From contig NZ_CP104003.1 in NCBI RefSeq assembly GCF_025231485.1, positions 558,001 through 622,000 on the forward strand: a stretch of DNA of 64,000 nucleotides, written 5' to 3'. The notes under the pieces were generated by a model. The model was not told where the DNA came from, did no database searches, and was given only the letters and a program-made list of their open reading frames with translations. Below are positions 11,574 through 23,119 of this stretch, one piece after another. Numbering within the stretch: position 1 is the stretch's first letter; the number at the start of each line of letters is the position of its first letter. The DNA comes from Salinirubellus salinus (lineage in GTDB: Archaea > Halobacteriota > Halobacteria > Halobacteriales > Haloarculaceae). The translations under genes were made by a program, and so were the position numbers.

Positions 11574-12992
11574 CTACTCGTCGCCGTACTCGCCCAGCTC
11601 ACACTCGGCGGCCGGTCCCTCGTCCGGACCGTAGCCGAGGTCGTCGCGCGGTGTCTGGTTGACCACGTTCAGCAGGTCGAACTCGGAGTCACGGTCGCCC
11701 GGGGCCTTCCCCTGCACGACCAGCACGTCACGGAACGCCTGGTGGTCCGAGCCACGCATCAGCTCGCCACCCAGCCCGGCGTTGTCGAACTCGTAGTCCT
11801 CCATCTCGCGGATGACCTCCGGCGGGTAGAACGTCCCCGCACGCTCGACCGCCGCCGCGTACTGCATCGTCTGGGTGTACGCCAGCCGGGCCGCGTAGGA
11901 CGGCGGCTGGTCGTACTCCTCCTGGAACGACTCGACGAAGCTCTGCGTGTACTCCTCGTCGAGCTTCCAGTTCCAGTCGGCCGTCCCGAAGATGCCCTCG
12001 ATGGAGTCGCTCGCCGCCTGCGCCATCAGGCGGTTGTACAGCGGGACGATGATCTCGAGACGCTCGTCCAGCCCAGCCTCGATGGCCTGCGGGAGCGAGT
12101 TCGCCGCGTCCAGCCCGTAGTGGTTCAGCACCAGCACGTCGGCGTCGTCCGGGACGTCCGACAGGTACGAGGAGTAGTCCGACGTCCCGAGCGGCGTCGG
12201 GACGGAGTCGATCTGACTCCAGCCCGCCACGTCGGTGAAGAACTGCTCCATCGACGCCTGCTGGGTCTGGCCCCAGGTGTAGTCGGCGTACAGCTGGTAG
12301 AAGTTCAGGTCCTCGCCGTAGGCGTCACGAACCACGGGGGCGAGCGCCTGTCCGGTCATGTACGCGTTGAACATCTCACGGAACGAGTACCGGACACACG
12401 CGCTGCCGGTGGTGTCGTTCGAGTGCGTGAGACAGCACTGGAACTGGACCTTCTCCTCCTGACATAGCTCCTGGACTGCGATGGCCACACCGGAGGAGGA
12501 CCCTCCGGTGATCATGATGGCGTCGTCACGGCTGATCATCCGCGAGGCGGACTGGCGAGCCGTGTCGGGGTCCGTCGCGGTGTCACCGTTCACCGACTCG
12601 ACGGTCTTCCCGAGCACGCCGTCGCCCGAGAGGTCGTCCCACTGGTCGACCCAGCCGCCACCGTTGTTCAGGTGCTGCTTCGCGAGGTCGTAGCCCCGAA
12701 GCTCGTCCTCGCCCTCCTGGGAGTACGACCCCGATTGCGGGACGTTGAACCCGAAGGTGACCGTGTCTCCCTCGACGGGGAAGTTGCCGAGCGACGGGTA
12801 CTCGGTCGAGCCCCCGTCGTCGCCGCCACCGCCGTTGCCGTCGTCGTCGCCGCCACCGCCGTTGCCATCGTCACCGCCCCCGCCGTCGTTCTGTCCGCCC
12901 TGGGTACATCCCGCCAGTCCGGCGAGACCGACGGCCCCCGCGGCCGCCGAACCCTTCACCACATCGCGCCGTGTAGGTCGACTGTCTTCCAT
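11574..12992 (-). CDS. livK: Solute-binding lipoprotein of the LivKHMGF transporter
   Basis: A 472-residue extracellular substrate-binding protein (type I periplasmic fold, urea/branched-chain amide-binding subclass). The N-terminus PTRRDVVKG is a Tat motif, followed by a hydrophobic run and lipobox LAGC (Cys29). A low-complexity Gly/Asp linker (about 33-60) separates the anchor from the binding domain, a common haloarchaeal design. Motifs such as FGFNVPQSGSYSQEGE and GGSSSGVAIAVQ match the family. The start at 12992 is favoured over in-frame ATGs at 13010 and 13025 because a TATA box at 13023-13030 lies about 34 nt upstream and would otherwise be coding. First gene of the liv operon. The true substrate is unknown. 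Confidence 0.92.
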   Translation of the reverse strand: MEDSRPTRRDVVKGSAAAGAVGLAGLAGCTQGGQNDGGGGDDGNGGGGDDDGNGGGGDDGGSTEYPSLGNFPVEGDTVTFGFNVPQSGSYSQEGEDELRGYDLAKQHLNNGGGWVDQWDDLSGDGVLGKTVESVNGDTATDPDTARQSASRMISRDDAIMITGGSSSGVAIAVQELCQEEKVQFQCCLTHSNDTTGSACVRYSFREMFNAYMTGQALAPVVRDAYGEDLNFYQLYADYTWGQTQQASMEQFFTDVAGWSQIDSVPTPLGTSDYSSYLSDVPDDADVLVLNHYGLDAANSLPQAIEAGLDERLEIIVPLYNRLMAQAASDSIEGIFGTADWNWKLDEEYTQSFVESFQEEYDQPPSYAARLAYTQTMQYAAAVERAGTFYPPEVIREMEDYEFDNAGLGGELMRGSDHQAFRDVLVVQGKAPGDRDSEFDLLNVVNQTPRDDLGYGPDEGPAAECELGEYGDE

Positions 12993-13022
12993 AGCGACAC
13001 CCGTTGCCATGGCATATCCCAA

Positions 13023-13030
13023 CATAAATG
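13023..13030 (-). promoter_or_regulatory. TATA box of the liv operon
   Basis: Minus-strand CATTTATG, centred about 34 nt before the chosen livK ATG, in an A+T-rich patch between two G+C-rich coding regions. Confidence 0.5.
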
Positions 13031-13236: not shown

Positions 13237-15228
<1,992 letters not shown>

Positions 15229-15297
15229 GACGTATCAGCTACGGTCCATCTGGCTAATGAAGGGGGGGTCTAACTAATGTAACCACCTCGCACGGTC

Positions 15298-17352
15298 TCA
15301 CTCCGCGTCGTCGAAGAACGTGGCCAGCAGTTTCCGCTGTCCGCGACGGAGGTGGTTGTGGAGCGTGGGCGAGGAGACGCCGATGGAGTCCGCGAGGTCC
15401 TCGGCCGTCGACCCACGAGGCCAGTCGAAGTAGCCCGCGTGGTACGCCGCCTGCAACACGGAGCGCTGGCGGTCCGTGAGCTTGCCGTCGAGCGAGCGCT
15501 GGAACTCCGTCGGCGTCCGCACCGAGGGTTCCGCCTCACGCTTGGCGACGAGATTTGCCGACGGCGACCCGTCGGCGACGTGTTCCGCGATGGCTCGGAC
15601 GTCGGCGCAGGGGGCCACCTCGCAACGCATCCGGGCGTGTCCGTCCTCCGCGACGAGTTCGCGGACGTTCGCGCCGTACTCGACGACGTTCCCGGCGAGC
15701 GACGCCTCGTCGACCGTCACCTCGAGGACGCTCTCCTCGCGGTGGTCGGCCACCAGCCGCGCCCCGGCCGCCGCCTCGCGGGTGAACGCCAGCACCTCGT
15801 CCGGCGGTGCCCCGCTGACGGTGACGTAGAACAACAGCGAGTCCTCGTCCAGCGGGACGAGCCCGGCGACGGTGAACGAGCAGTCGAGTTCGGCAGACCC
15901 GGCGACGAACAGCGAGTCGTGGTCGTCGGATCGGAACTCGAGCTCGAGCAGTTCGTCCGCCAGCAACAGGCGTTTCCACTCGACGGCCGCGACGGCGCTC
16001 GACACCCGGCCGCCGAGGTTCTCGAGGGCGGCCCGCTCGGCCGGCGAGGGGGAGACGGGCGTCCCGACGACGAGCACCCCCGTCGAGCCGCCCTCGTGGT
16101 GCAGGGGCACCCGGACGAGCCAGCACCGACTCTCGCCGTCCCGGTCGACCGCCGAACACCGAACCGCGTCCGGGACTGCCGGCGCGTCGGCGTCGGTCGT
16201 TTCGGGGTGGTGGCGGAGCCGCTGGGCCGCCTCCGTCCCGATTCCGCTCGACGCGACCAGTTCTCCAGGGCCGTCGGTTTCGGAACGGCTCACCCACGCG
16301 AACTCGATGGGTCCGGCCGCCGCGAGCGTCTCACACGTCACGCGGAAGATGGCCGACTCCGTCGAGACGTCGTCCAGCGCCTCGTGGACTCCCGCGGCCG
16401 CATCCTGGACCGCGCGCAACCGGGCCAGTTCGGCGCCGTCGCCCGTACTCGTCTCCGGGTGCACCGTCAGCAGGAAGCCGTCACTCGCGCCGTCTCGCTC
16501 CGCGAGTGCCGTGAGCGTCAGGCGACCGGCGGTCGACTCCGTCTCCTCGCCGACCGTCGCCTCGCCGACCCACGTCTCGCTGGCGAGTGCCGTCTCCCAG
16601 AGGTCGGCCCACGTCGCGTCCGCCGGCCAGACGAGCCGCCGGACGTCGAGCCCGGTGGACTCTCGGTCGCCCACGAGTGCCTCGAACCGGGGATTGGCGT
16701 GCACCACGGCCCCCCCGCCGTCCAGCAACGCGACCGGGTGTTCGAGGCGGTCGAACGCGGCACGGAAGCGGTCGTCGCCGCCCTCCGTGGCACGCGCGAA
16801 CGCCGCCGCGACGGCCGCACCGTCGGGGTCGCCGTCGGGTGCGAGCGCGTCGAGTCGACGCCACCCACCGACGGCCATCACCACGGCGGGGTCGACGCCG
16901 CGTTCCAGCAGCCACCGGCCGTATCGCCGGCGCAGGTCCGCGCTGGAGACCGATCGCAGGCACTCGTCGCCCGCGTCGGCCGCGCTGTCGGCCACCTCGC
17001 CGACGAGCATCTGGAGGCGTCGCGGGGTCACGTCGAACAGGGGCTCCGACTCGTCGACGCCGTTGCTGGCCGCGTAGCGCGAGAGTTCACGCTCCAGGTC
17101 CGGCGGGAGGTAGGCCGTCCGGACGGTGTCGCCCGACTCGTCGCGGACCGTCAGCAGGTAGTGGACCCGTCCCTCGGCGATTCGAGCGGTGACATCGGCG
17201 GGCATGAGACTACTCATCTCGGCGGGGCGCAACCCCGCCTCACCCGCGAGGCGGACCACCAACCGCTCCCGGTAGGTTCGGGTCGCGCGGAGGAGTCGGC
17301 TGTACCGGCCCTCGAGCGGCGACCGGCCGACGTCCGACTCCGTCTCCGACAT
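15298..17352 (-). CDS. Bat-type HTH-10 regulator with integrase-derived N-terminus
   Basis: A 684-residue transcription regulator. Residues about 14-170 resemble the catalytic domain of a tyrosine recombinase: GEAGLRPAEM (Arg42 in the Arg-I position) and a box-II-like stretch DLRRRYGRWLLERGVDPAVV. The box-II His and the final LGH are changed (GGW) and no nucleophilic Tyr follows, so recombination is not expected. A PAS-like domain (about 195-290), a GAF domain (about 300-450), the bacterio-opsin activator GAF-like domain (about 470-610) and a C-terminal HTH-10 (about 625-684, LTDRQRSVLQAAYHAGYF) follow. A TATA box 29 nt upstream supports the ATG at 17352. Its position between two ACS genes suggests control of acetate metabolism; that is inference. 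Confidence 0.9.
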   Translation of the reverse strand: MSETESDVGRSPLEGRYSRLLRATRTYRERLVVRLAGEAGLRPAEMSSLMPADVTARIAEGRVHYLLTVRDESGDTVRTAYLPPDLERELSRYAASNGVDESEPLFDVTPRRLQMLVGEVADSAADAGDECLRSVSSADLRRRYGRWLLERGVDPAVVMAVGGWRRLDALAPDGDPDGAAVAAAFARATEGGDDRFRAAFDRLEHPVALLDGGGAVVHANPRFEALVGDRESTGLDVRRLVWPADATWADLWETALASETWVGEATVGEETESTAGRLTLTALAERDGASDGFLLTVHPETSTGDGAELARLRAVQDAAAGVHEALDDVSTESAIFRVTCETLAAAGPIEFAWVSRSETDGPGELVASSGIGTEAAQRLRHHPETTDADAPAVPDAVRCSAVDRDGESRCWLVRVPLHHEGGSTGVLVVGTPVSPSPAERAALENLGGRVSSAVAAVEWKRLLLADELLELEFRSDDHDSLFVAGSAELDCSFTVAGLVPLDEDSLLFYVTVSGAPPDEVLAFTREAAAGARLVADHREESVLEVTVDEASLAGNVVEYGANVRELVAEDGHARMRCEVAPCADVRAIAEHVADGSPSANLVAKREAEPSVRTPTEFQRSLDGKLTDRQRSVLQAAYHAGYFDWPRGSTAEDLADSIGVSSPTLHNHLRRGQRKLLATFFDDAE

Positions 17353-17557: not shown

Positions 17558-19462
17558 TCAGTCGCCGTCGCCCGACACCGTCTCCAGTTCCCCGACGGCC
17601 TCCGGGTTGCGCAGCGCACTCGTGTCGCCGTAGGACTCGCCGTCGGCGACGGCCGACAGCAGCCGCCGCATGATCTTGCCCGAGTGAGTCTTGGGGAGGT
17701 CCGGGGCGACGACGATGCGCGCGAACTGGGTGTCCTCGCCCAGTCGCTCCGCGACGTGGTGGTCGATGCGCTCTGTGAGCGCCGCGTCACCCTCCACACC
17801 GCGCTCGGTGCAGACGTAGACCACGGCACGACCACCCTCCTGGTGGGACTCGACGACGGCCGCCTCGGCGACTCCCTCGACCTCGAGGACGACGCGTTCG
17901 ATGGTCGCCGGACCGTAGTCGGTGTCGCCGACGGTGACGGTGTCGTCCTCGCGTCCGAGGAAGGTGACGTACCCCTCGTGGTCGAGGATGGCCCGGTCGC
18001 TCGTGACGTACGCCCAGTCCTCGCCCTCGGCGGCGGCCGCCTCGGTCAGCCCGCGGTGCATCCCCGGCCAGGGTGCCGTCACCGCGAGGTGGCCGGGTTC
18101 CCCGCGCGCCACGGACTCGCCGCCCGCGTCGACCACGTCGACCTCGACGCCGGGGATGGCGGGCCCGGCACTCCCCGGTTTCGCCCGGTCGACGCCCGGG
18201 AGCGTCGAGACGAGGATACCCCCGGTCTCGGTCTGCCACCACGTATCCACGACGGCACACTCCTCACCGCCGACCGACTCGTAGTACCACTCCCACGCGC
18301 GGGCGTCCATCGGCTCGCCGACCGAGCCGAGCAACCGGAGCGACGAGAGGTCGTGTGCCGACGGGTGTTCCGCGCCGTGTTTCATGAACGAGCGGACGGC
18401 CGTCGAGGCGGTGTAGAACACGTCGACGCGGTTGCGGTCGACGAGCTCCCACACCCGGTCGCGCTCCGGGTCGTCCGGCGCGCCCTCGTAGAGCATCGTG
18501 GTCGCGCCGAGCGCGAGCGGGCCGTAGACGATGTAGGAGTGCCCCGTGATCCACGCCACGTCCGCGGCACACCAGTAGGTGTCACGCGGCTCGATGTCCA
18601 GGACGGCGTGGCTCGTCCACGCTACGTGCGAGAGGTACCCTCCAGTCGTGTGCGTGACACGGTCGGGCTCGCCGGTCGTCCCCGAGGTGTAGGTGACGAA
18701 CAGCGGGTCCTCGGCGGCGCGTTCGACCGGGTCGACCCGGTCGCCAGCGTGGGCGTCGACGAGGTCCTCGTAGTCGTGCTGCCCCTCGGAGAGGTACGGG
18801 TCGTCGAGCCGCGGCACCACCACTGTCTCGACGGGGTGCTCGACGCTGGTACGGGCGTTGTCGGCCTTGTTCTTCTGGTTGACCGCGCTCCCGCGCCGGT
18901 AGTAGCCGTCGCAGGTGACGAGGTAGCCCGAACCCGTCCGTTCCAGTCGCGCGCGGAGTTCGTCGGCCGAGTAGCCCGCGAAGACGACGTTGTGGAGGGC
19001 ACCCAGTCGCGCGCAGGCGAGCATCGTGATGGGTAGCTCCGGGATACCGGGCATGAACAGCGTCACGACGTCGTCCTCGCCGACGCCGAGGCCACGGAGC
19101 GCCGCAGCTGCCGCGTTCACCTCGTTGTAGAGGTCGAGGTAGGTGTAGACCCGCGTCTCGCCGTCGGCCCCCTCCCACCGGATGGCGACGGAGTTCTTCC
19201 GCTCGGCGAGGTGGCGGTCGACGCAGTTGTACGCGGCGTTCAGCTGGCCGCCAGCGAACCACGTCAGCGACTCCGCCTCCCTGTCCAGCACCGTCTCGTG
19301 GGGGCTCGACCACTCGAGGAGGTCGGCCGCCCGTCGCCACGCCTCGTGGCCCTCGCGTTCGAAGGCCTCCCTGACCTCGCTGGTCACGTTCGCCGTCTCG
19401 ACGAACGAGGCCGGGGGCTCGACACGTCGTGGTCGCTCGCGGCCGTCGGTCCTCCCTGTCAC
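17558..19462 (-). CDS. Divergent acetyl-CoA synthetase paralogue with altered active-site motifs
   Basis: A 634-residue homologue of the ACS at 13237 with the same plan: CVDRHL, DTWWQTETGG, KTHSGKIMRR (Lys596). Two normally invariant regions differ. The P-loop reads SGTTGEPDRV (about 260-269) in place of GKPKG, losing the Lys and Gly. The hinge segment that is VAGHRLGT in the neighbour reads VGDTDYGP here (about 510-518), losing the Arg that contacts AMP. The protein may act on another acid, have low activity or serve a regulatory role. The GTG at 19462 is preferred over an ATG at 19534 because a TATA box lies 28 nt upstream. Confidence 0.88.
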   Translation of the reverse strand: MTGRTDGRERPRRVEPPASFVETANVTSEVREAFEREGHEAWRRAADLLEWSSPHETVLDREAESLTWFAGGQLNAAYNCVDRHLAERKNSVAIRWEGADGETRVYTYLDLYNEVNAAAAALRGLGVGEDDVVTLFMPGIPELPITMLACARLGALHNVVFAGYSADELRARLERTGSGYLVTCDGYYRRGSAVNQKNKADNARTSVEHPVETVVVPRLDDPYLSEGQHDYEDLVDAHAGDRVDPVERAAEDPLFVTYTSGTTGEPDRVTHTTGGYLSHVAWTSHAVLDIEPRDTYWCAADVAWITGHSYIVYGPLALGATTMLYEGAPDDPERDRVWELVDRNRVDVFYTASTAVRSFMKHGAEHPSAHDLSSLRLLGSVGEPMDARAWEWYYESVGGEECAVVDTWWQTETGGILVSTLPGVDRAKPGSAGPAIPGVEVDVVDAGGESVARGEPGHLAVTAPWPGMHRGLTEAAAAEGEDWAYVTSDRAILDHEGYVTFLGREDDTVTVGDTDYGPATIERVVLEVEGVAEAAVVESHQEGGRAVVYVCTERGVEGDAALTERIDHHVAERLGEDTQFARIVVAPDLPKTHSGKIMRRLLSAVADGESYGDTSALRNPEAVGELETVSGDGD

Positions 19463-19486
19463 GCCTCCCGATTCGGAAATCTGTCC

Positions 19487-19494
19487 GATAAAAG
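19487..19494 (-). promoter_or_regulatory. TATA box of the divergent ACS paralogue
   Basis: Minus-strand CTTTTATC is centred about 28 nt before the GTG at 19462, pointing to a leaderless transcript starting with GTG. Confidence 0.55.
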
Positions 19495-19567
19495 TTCTGT
19501 CAAACCACGGCTTCGAACCGGCCGGCGAGGACAAGACCTATGCTCCGACTCGACGGGCGTCCGACAC

Positions 19568-21326: not shown

Positions 21327-23027
21327 TCAGGCCAGTCCGATGCGCTCCTGGTACGCGCCGTGGTGTTCCTGGAACACCTGCATGATCTCGCCCATCGTGG
21401 CGTAGGCCTTCACCGCGTCGATGATGGCCGGCATCACGTTCTCGTCGCGCTCGATGGCCTCGTCGAGCGCGCCGAGCGTCCGCTCGACCTCGTCGTCGTC
21501 GCGCTCCTCCTTGACCGCCTCCAGCCGGGCGAGCTGTTTCTCGGAGATCTCGTCGTCCACCTTCAGGATCTCGGGGGAGGTGTCCTCGTCACTCACGTAC
21601 CTGTTGACCCCCACCATCACCTCCTCCTCGCTGTCGACGCGCTTCTGGTACTCGTAGGAGGCCTCCTGGATTTCGCGGTGGAAGTAGCCCTCCTCGATAC
21701 CGGCGAGGACGCCGTCGCGGACCGACCCGTCGCCGAGTTCGCGTATCTCCTCGATGTACGCCAGGATCTCGGCCTCCATCTCGAACGTGAGCTTCTCGAT
21801 GGCGAAACTGCCCGCCATCGGGTCGACGATGTCCGCGACGCCGGACTCCTCGGCGATGATCTGCTGGGTCCGGAGCGCCACCCGGACCGCGTCCTCGCTC
21901 GGCAGTGCGAGTGCCTCGTCGTAGCTGTTGGTGTGGAGCGACTGGGTCCCGCCGAGGACGCCAGCGAGTGCCTGCAGGGTCACCCGGATGATGTTGTTCA
22001 GCGGCTGCTGGGCGGTGAGCGACTGGCCAGCGGTCTGGGTGTGGAACTTCAGGCGCCGGGCGGCGTCGGCCTCCGCGTCGTACCACTCCTTCGTCTTCTC
22101 GGCCCAGATGCGCCGGGCGGCACGGAACTTCGCCACCTCCTCGAAGACGGAGTTGTGCGAGTTGAAGAAGAACGACAGGAGGGGGGCCACCTCGTTCGCG
22201 TCGAGTCCACGCTCCATCGCGTCCTCGAGGTAGGCGAAGCCGTCCGCGAGCGTGAACGCGGCCTCCTGTGCCGCGGTGCTACCGGCCTCGCGGATGTGGT
22301 AGCCCGAGACCGAGATGGGGTAGAACTTCGGGGTGTTCTCCACGGCGAACTCCACGGTGTCGGTCACCACGTCCAGCGAGGGTTCGGGCGGGATGACCCA
22401 CTCCTTCTGCGCGATGAACTCCTTCAGCATGTCGTTCTGGAGGGTGCCGCGGATCTCCTCGCGGGGGACGCCCTGCTGGTCGGCCAGCGCGATGTACATC
22501 GCGTAGATGACGGCCGCGCTCGGGTTGATTGTGAACGACGTGCTCACCTCGCCGACGTCGATGCCGTCGAACAGCACCTCCATGTCACGGAGCGTGTCCA
22601 CGGCCACGCCCTCCTTGCCGACCTCGCCCTCGCTCATCGGGTGGTCCGAGTCGATTCCCATCAGCGAGGGCATGTCGAACGCCGTCGAGAGACCGGTCTG
22701 CCCCTCGTCGACGAGGTAGTGGAACCGCTCGTTCGTCTCCTCGGCGGTGCCGAAGCCGGCGAACTGCCGCATCGTCCACGTCCGGCCGCGGTACATCGTC
22801 GGGTACGCGCCCCGCGTGAACGGCGGCTCACCGGGCATCCCGAGATCCTCGCTGTAGTCGAGGTCGGCGATGTCGTCGGGTGTGTAGACGCGGTCCACCT
22901 CGTGGTTCGAGACGGTGGCGAACCGCTCCTTGCGCTCGCCGTGCGCGTCGAGGACCGGGCCGAGGGTCTCCTCCTCCCACTCCTCGCGCTCGGCCCGTAT
23001 CTCTGTCAGGTCGTCCTCGTCGAACAT
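21327..23027 (-). CDS. mut: Methylmalonyl-CoA mutase, catalytic (large/alpha) subunit
   Basis: A 566-residue B12-dependent mutase TIM-barrel chain interconverting (R)-methylmalonyl-CoA and succinyl-CoA. Motifs YPTMYRGRTWTMRQFAG (substrate-CoA contacts), STAFDMPS, GYHIREAGST (essential His) and FHTQTAGQSL match the family. The C-terminal cobalamin-binding domain (DxHxxG) is absent, so this is the split archaeal type whose small subunit is encoded elsewhere. The ATG at 23027 (MFDEDDLTEIR) is chosen over an upstream start that would include the promoter region. Links propionate, odd-chain and branched-chain acyl-CoA breakdown to the TCA cycle, in keeping with acyl-CoA genes in the window. Confidence 0.95.
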   Translation of the reverse strand: MFDEDDLTEIRAEREEWEEETLGPVLDAHGERKERFATVSNHEVDRVYTPDDIADLDYSEDLGMPGEPPFTRGAYPTMYRGRTWTMRQFAGFGTAEETNERFHYLVDEGQTGLSTAFDMPSLMGIDSDHPMSEGEVGKEGVAVDTLRDMEVLFDGIDVGEVSTSFTINPSAAVIYAMYIALADQQGVPREEIRGTLQNDMLKEFIAQKEWVIPPEPSLDVVTDTVEFAVENTPKFYPISVSGYHIREAGSTAAQEAAFTLADGFAYLEDAMERGLDANEVAPLLSFFFNSHNSVFEEVAKFRAARRIWAEKTKEWYDAEADAARRLKFHTQTAGQSLTAQQPLNNIIRVTLQALAGVLGGTQSLHTNSYDEALALPSEDAVRVALRTQQIIAEESGVADIVDPMAGSFAIEKLTFEMEAEILAYIEEIRELGDGSVRDGVLAGIEEGYFHREIQEASYEYQKRVDSEEEVMVGVNRYVSDEDTSPEILKVDDEISEKQLARLEAVKEERDDDEVERTLGALDEAIERDENVMPAIIDAVKAYATMGEIMQVFQEHHGAYQERIGLA

Positions 23028-23119
23028 GCGCGGCACTTCGGAGACCTCGCGTATCAAGTTTAGTGTGCGGGCCGGCAGTACCGGACACGCTTTTGCCACG
23101 CCGCGCCACCACTCCCGCT

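Follow-up and report, generated by a model that had tools for sequence, protein, structure and literature searches.

A recombinase-like domain in a candidate Bat-type regulator located between acetyl-CoA synthetase genes of Halobacteria

Gene content and domain architecture

The DNA analysed here (the window) is a stretch of 64,000 nucleotides from Salinirubellus salinus, in which a gene for a Bat-type regulator lies between two genes for acetyl-CoA synthetase (acs), all three on the minus strand. The regulator gene (15298..17352) is an open frame of 684 aa, which had already been listed, without a strand, in a preliminary description of this DNA, and the acs assignment given there holds for both neighbours: the downstream acs (13237..15228) is an open frame of 663 aa and the upstream one (17558..19534) a frame of 658 aa, the start of which is approximate. 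The acs cluster is flanked by a gene for a substrate-binding protein (11574-13025) and a methylmalonyl-CoA-mutase-like gene (21327-23099), and relatives of one or both of these also border the cluster in several other genomes.

From the N- to the C-terminus, the regulator contains a tyrosine-recombinase-like domain (residues ~12-170, 16843..17319), a PAS domain (residues 195-251, 16600..16770), a BAT domain (residues 466-619, 15496..15957) and an HTH_10 DNA-binding domain (residues 625-676, 15325..15480), all encoded on the minus strand. The last three are Pfam assignments (PAS_8, BAT and HTH_10), all above the Pfam cut-offs, and the first is based on Pfam, a structural model and a fold match. 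In a scan of the first 175 residues alone, Phage_integrase matched residues 17-167 with 35.8 bits versus a cut-off of 27.1 (E 8.6e-9), and the NCBIfam model of archaeal XerA matched the same N-terminal stretch from model position 103 (of 263), far below its cut-off. Of the PAS-GAF-BAT-HTH-10 order proposed earlier, all but GAF was recovered: in the Pfam scan no GAF model matched the window protein at E up to 1, although GAF models do match several of its relatives. PAS, for its part, gave no match in two shorter relatives out of six scanned. The N-terminal domain of canonical Bat, Response_reg (REC), is not found in the window protein at E up to 1, and the recombinase-like domain is located there instead.

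Conservation of the acs neighbourhood

The link between this gene and acs, which the preliminary description had noted for the window, recurs across the Halobacteria. A family search of 146 genomes gave 14 full-length relatives besides the window protein (39-54% identical), and acs is present on both sides, on the same strand, at 15 of 15 family loci (the 14 and one fragmentary locus). Among 40 further top loci (39 genomes) from a class-wide search, both acs are present at 35 and only the upstream one at 4, the contig being too short at the remaining one. For the 79 named loci, which were selected with a peptide pattern of the domain, independently of acs, the numbers are 70 with both acs, 6 with only the upstream one, 2 with only the downstream one and 1 with none; eight of the nine without both are cut by a contig end (the exception being L188). 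These three samples overlap, in that some genomes occur in more than one. Genera with the locus include Halorientalis, Haloarcula, Haloferax, Halobacterium, Natrinema, Natrialba, Halorubrum and Halorussus.

The recombinase-like domain and BAT lie within one open frame at 75 of the 79 named loci. At L107/L212 (G397), L121/L050 (G088) and L141 (Haloferax denitrificans), the recombinase-like domain and the remaining regulator are in separate open frames, and the regulator gene there therefore looks broken or misassembled.

In Haloferax gibbonsii the cluster is located on a megaplasmid and consists of acs, regulator, acs, DUF4212, a sodium/solute symporter and a universal stress protein. In H. volcanii, acs7, HVO_A0155, ssf (ActP) and uspA28 were reported as an acetate-specific transcript on a Northern blot, with acs8 being HVO_A0158 (PMC7746861), and in H. 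mediterranei HFX_5129 and HFX_5131 were reported to be 3.47- and 3.06-fold up on acetate compared to glucose (PMC11784441). Judging from HVO_A0158 and HVO_A0156 on either side, the gene between these acs genes would be HVO_A0157 in H. volcanii, and by the same reasoning HFX_5130 in H. mediterranei; no mention of it was found in the open-licence literature, and the word 'regulator' is absent from the main text of both Haloferax acetate-induction papers.

Fold and active site of the N-terminal module

An AlphaFold2 model of residues 1-190, made with 59 relatives in the alignment, has a mean pLDDT of 91.1 and a pTM of 0.84. With this model, Foldseek returned 44 solved structures at E up to 0.001 (the top ones being XerA, Cre, an integron integrase and XerH), and VIA-align gave Z-scores of 17.2 (165 residues, rmsd 3.4) and 16.0 for XerA, so that the structural match to recombinases, which had been named beforehand as a test, was indeed found. 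Phage regulators are among the structural matches as well, namely SroF with Sar (Z 13.5), SroF on DNA (13.0), YopR (12.2) and MrpR (11.5). Judged by the predicted structure, the N-terminal module is a tyrosine-recombinase catalytic-domain fold.

By alignment, GLRPAEM (residues 40-46, 17215..17235) is box I, as had been proposed, with Arg42 as Arg-I, and ADLR (residues 138-141, 16930..16941) is part of box II, in which the DLRRRYGRWLL stretch that had been matched to this box falls (these and the following positions are on the minus strand). Arg-II is present as Arg141, the catalytic His is missing as described (His-II is Ala138), and there is no Lys in the loop that would hold Lys-beta. Box III is GGW (residues 162-164, 16861..16869), the Trp of which (Trp164) is native in the subfamily, being found in 23 of 23 stand-alone relatives; the lack of LGH, previously taken as evidence of inactivity, is therefore the wrong test. 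The slot of the nucleophilic Tyr (W+9, from the spacing in relatives) is occupied by Asp173 (16834..16836).

These positions were counted in 122 distinct fused sequences (of 138, the window's own row being excluded) and in 23 stand-alone ones (27 distinct sequences minus 4 broken or cut fused genes). Arg-I is present in 103 of the fused versus 22 of the stand-alone domains, Arg-II in 119 versus 23, and Trp-III in 117 of the fused. Lys-beta is found in none of the fused domains versus 22 of the stand-alone ones, and His-II in 2 versus 23 (one fused domain has a Lys at this position). A Tyr at W+9 is present in 68 of the 122 fused and in all 23 stand-alone domains, which means that the reported absence of the nucleophile applies to the window protein, but not to these 68 relatives. 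All six catalytic letters (R-K-H-R-W-Y) occur together in 21 of the 23 stand-alone domains and in none of the 122 fused ones. Five letters are left in two fused domains, L102 and L134, in which His-II and Tyr are kept and only Lys-beta is gone; going by these residues, both look like intermediates of active-site decay. Upon comparison of the stand-alone profile with the PDB, its GGW aligned with the GGW of Cre, though weakly (E 0.02), and its Tyr came near that of Cre.

The Tyr at W+9 in 68 fused domains, accompanied by His-II in L102 and L134, could mean that some fused proteins are still active and cleave or nick DNA at acs or close to it. This appears very improbable, considering that Lys-beta is missing throughout the 122, that the window protein has Asp in the Tyr slot, and that the domain is fixed between acs genes and not in mobile elements. 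The best reading of the residue pattern is that the N-terminal module represents a dead, domesticated recombinase.

Compact relatives and origin of the fusion

Besides the Bat-type fusions, a profile of the domain matched many open frames of ~200 aa that hold the domain alone, in 15 genomes that were picked for several matches each. In a plasmid collection 41 records matched; among the 20 listed, the annotation is bacterio-opsin activator protein in 10 and site-specific integrase in 10, and pNRC100 of Halobacterium salinarum (VNG_RS12805) is among these listed matches. The genome of the window itself has two compact stand-alone recombinases on its second contig (L003 and L004, G000:C2:9815-10276 and 202907-203368), both 206-aa frames with equal scores. 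A stand-alone recombinase of 201 aa in a 1.9-Mb genome (L216, G164:C16:6873-7415) reaches 206 bits against the fused-domain profile, above the other stand-alone ones, and its 3.5-kb locus is devoid of acs or BAT matches. Of 391 genomes sampled from the class, 290 contain the recombinase-like domain (E up to 1e-25), with stand-alone copies counted as well.

Chromosomal XerA was considered as the nearest relation and rejected: it is the best solved match, but the compact haloarchaeal recombinases score far better (down to E 3.5e-61 against the fused-domain profile) and form the neighbouring clade in a tree built from 40 fused domains (that of the window among them), 21 stand-alone ones and 5 two-domain integrases. 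In this tree the fused domains are one clade (support 95/86), which supports a single origin of the fusion, and this clade adjoins the stand-alone ones with a support of 90/63, which is not strong. Since the stand-alone proteins have a complete active site, the direction would have been from recombinase to regulator. The preliminary description had put forward that a Bat-type regulator recruited a tyrosine-recombinase-like domain, and this is supported by the profile match, the fold, the residues and the single origin in the tree; with an independent profile hit, a confident fold match and class-wide conservation the observation is more than chance. The possibility that the domain is a normal part of Bat was rejected, as two Bat-like proteins beside rhodopsin genes are without an integrase match; at three other rhodopsin loci that were examined there is no Bat-like frame.

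Promoter element

Between the regulator gene and the downstream acs lies a conserved promoter element with the consensus TTgcATAgTTAGA-N8-TTTA, the 3' end of which is TATA-like. Its instance in the window, GTTACATTAGTTAGACCCCCCCTTCAT (15257..15283, minus strand, upstream of the downstream acs), scores 17.2 versus a threshold of 7.2 and has a poor TATA-like end; of the two regions that had been suggested for shift assays, it is 15229-15297 that holds the element. Using a motif that was seeded from L102 and scored on its own training set, the element was found above the 1% null in 53 of 56 representatives (window included), compared to 0 of 56 coding stretches. The representatives derive from 123 loci, 111 of which have a mapped downstream acs; clustering at 75% domain identity left 57, and one with more than 500 nt was excluded. 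Ahead of the other acs, only 3 of 55 representatives have the element, and ahead of the regulator 0 of 56. In most representatives its end (the TATA-like box) lies 16-31 nt ahead of the acs start.

Unseeded motif learning on one half of the representatives recovered the element in 24/28 and 27/28 held-out ones, versus 0/28 and 0/28 in coding controls and 2/27 and 0/28 upstream of the other acs, the split being random with related rows on both sides. Motif learning upstream of the other acs yielded only its own coding start, due to that start being misplaced. With a stricter pattern, allowing up to 2 mismatches, exactly one site per genome was found in 12 of 12 genomes (from two families), with none for the reversed-pattern control, and all 12 single sites sit, by their coordinates, just downstream of the regulator gene. 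Conversely, in 10 genomes without the regulator beside the downstream-type acs (hand-picked: 7 + 2 from the no-match rows of two domain searches, plus G067, which was in neither search) the element was above threshold in 0/10, which against 53/56 corresponds to a Fisher's p of 1.4e-9 (kinship uncorrected). These 10 loci have no second acs of that kind and no adjoining regulator, and because the gene order also differs there, the absence of the element may reflect a different promoter.

Considering its TATA-like box and its proximity to the start codon, the element might be a special basal promoter (i.e. a variant TATA and BRE for one of several haloarchaeal TFB-TBP pairs) rather than the site of a regulator. 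A basal promoter of this kind seems improbable, however, since each of the 12 genomes tested has a single site and all 10 acs loci without the regulator have none.

A second conserved word, the near palindrome CTAA-N4-YTAG, follows the stop codon of the regulator (e.g. at L087, L088 and L132) and occurs in 38 of 111 (shortened) intergenic regions, compared to a Markov mean of 0.1 and none in coding sequence; it is possibly a second palindrome. The motif ACTAGTT, which we take to be the core of the bop UAS, was rejected as a site, as it was found in 0 of the 111 (shortened) intergenic regions.

DNA contact by the module

The RRLQM motif of the window protein (residues 111-115, 17008..17022, minus strand) has its first Arg in the column of the Arg of LSTRAL in Cre, presumably Arg259, which makes a base contact. 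All 122 distinct fused domains have the Arg-Arg pair of this motif (RRxQM); its second Arg, found in 0 of 23 stand-alone domains, has been gained. Two other basic positions weaken from the stand-alone to the fused domains (100% to 50% and 87% to 70%), and the net charge is on average negative in both groups, at -4.5 for the fused and -6.3 for the stand-alone domains. The residue pattern fits a loss of cutting with a retained DNA contact, but does not prove it. Considering the kept basic residues together with the promoter element, the chances that the module forms a second DNA contact would be a little better than even.

As the main alternative, the module might operate off the DNA, in dimerisation or ligand sensing, in which case the kept phosphate pocket (Arg-I, Arg-II and Trp) would bind a phosphorylated metabolite of acetate activation (acyl-adenylate, AMP or CoA), in the place that REC has in canonical Bat. 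This would agree with the retention of Arg-II and Trp in 119 and 117 of the 122 domains in which the cutting residues are gone, with the weak Response_reg match that the Bat-like protein beside a bacteriorhodopsin gene has at the place of the recombinase domain, and with a survey in which other domains are reported to replace the N-terminal REC of some Bat-like proteins (PMC5847659). It agrees less well with the gained Arg and the invariant basic position that aligns with the LSTRAL Arg, and the solved relatives bind DNA, while the module is not known to have a ligand; we therefore consider a purely sensing or dimerising module somewhat unlikely.

Proposed role of the regulator

It is quite probable that the protein regulates acs. 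The explanation that we favour, and hold as a whole with moderate confidence, is that acetyl-CoA synthetase has a dedicated transcription regulator, which is encoded by this gene, acts locally and is more likely to activate than to repress. The regulator would recognise the promoter element mainly through HTH_10, and the recombinase-derived module would touch the same DNA a second time without cutting it (a half-clamp), while PAS (and GAF in relatives) would sense the metabolic or redox state, by which acs would be switched when acetate needs activation. Besides the fold, the residue decay, the gene order and the element, the acetate induction of the Haloferax counterparts and the precedent of MrpR speak for this explanation. 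The loss of Arg-I in 19 of the 122 fused domains counts against it, as do the two weakened basic positions, the negative mean net charge and the scarcity or absence of the element ahead of the upstream acs (3 of 55) and of the regulator (0 of 56).

Alternatively, the regulator could repress the downstream acs by occupying the element next to the TATA-like box, which would keep the basal factors away until acetate metabolism lifts the block. The element does end in a TATA-like box near the acs start, and MrpR, the precedent for a dead recombinase, is a repressor. Bat, however, activates bop (PMC3184054), and the HTH_10 regulators named in the literature passages at hand are activators, so that an activator would be considerably more probable and repression is judged unlikely.

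With respect to the origin of such an acs regulator, a further-reaching scenario is possible, though rather doubtful: a compact plasmid-type recombinase would have been acquired in a single event, no later than the early radiation of the Halobacteria, lost its cutting activity and become the DNA-clamping half of a single-target regulator, in which HTH_10 and the half-clamp together read one unique acs-promoter element per genome. If true, much of an archaeal class would rely on a domesticated enzyme of mobile elements for acetate activation. More generally, if the favoured explanation is correct, a mobile-element recombinase has become, through domestication, a permanent module of a metabolic regulator in a whole archaeal class, with the graded loss of its active site still visible among living relatives. 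A candidate regulator and a candidate operator can now be named for acetate activation in haloarchaea, and the case merits testing for its fixation throughout the class at a single metabolic locus, with a single site in each genome.

Comparison with known systems

The fusion itself has already been published. Family fam30-04 of the archaeal tyrosine recombinases comprises larger proteins with Phage_integrase, BAT, HTH_10 and, in some, GAF_2 (Badel et al. 2021, PMC8371274), and the window protein shares the combination of Phage_integrase, BAT and HTH_10. That family was classed among the recombinases, and the accessible passages of the paper touch neither on acs and the promoter element nor on the compact relatives and the loss of catalytic residues. 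A search of open-licence works found no publication on the decay of these residues, on the compact relatives, on the element or on a link of such proteins to acs. A caution follows for the published 'recombinase family', which largely consists of proteins without a complete active site.

The compact stand-alone haloarchaeal recombinases share the GGW box III, the strand motif R-x-A/T-Y/W and the Tyr slot at W+9 with the fused domains, but consist of the catalytic domain alone, mostly have a complete active site and are in some cases plasmid-borne. Bat and other HTH_10 regulators, on the other hand, have PAS, BAT and HTH_10 in the same order as the window protein; the integrase match is absent from the two scanned Bat-like proteins beside rhodopsin genes, one of which matches Response_reg weakly.

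A dead recombinase acting as a repressor has a precedent in phage: MrpR has a recombinase fold, has lost the recombinase function and is a DNA-binding master repressor (PMC10516654). As far as the published passages go, MrpR/YopR and SroF resemble the present case in that a recombinase fold is employed in regulation, with lost or altered catalytic residues in MrpR. These regulators, however, are phage-borne, and MrpR has a core-binding domain without PAS, BAT or HTH_10, whereas the gene of the window is cellular and flanked by acs genes.
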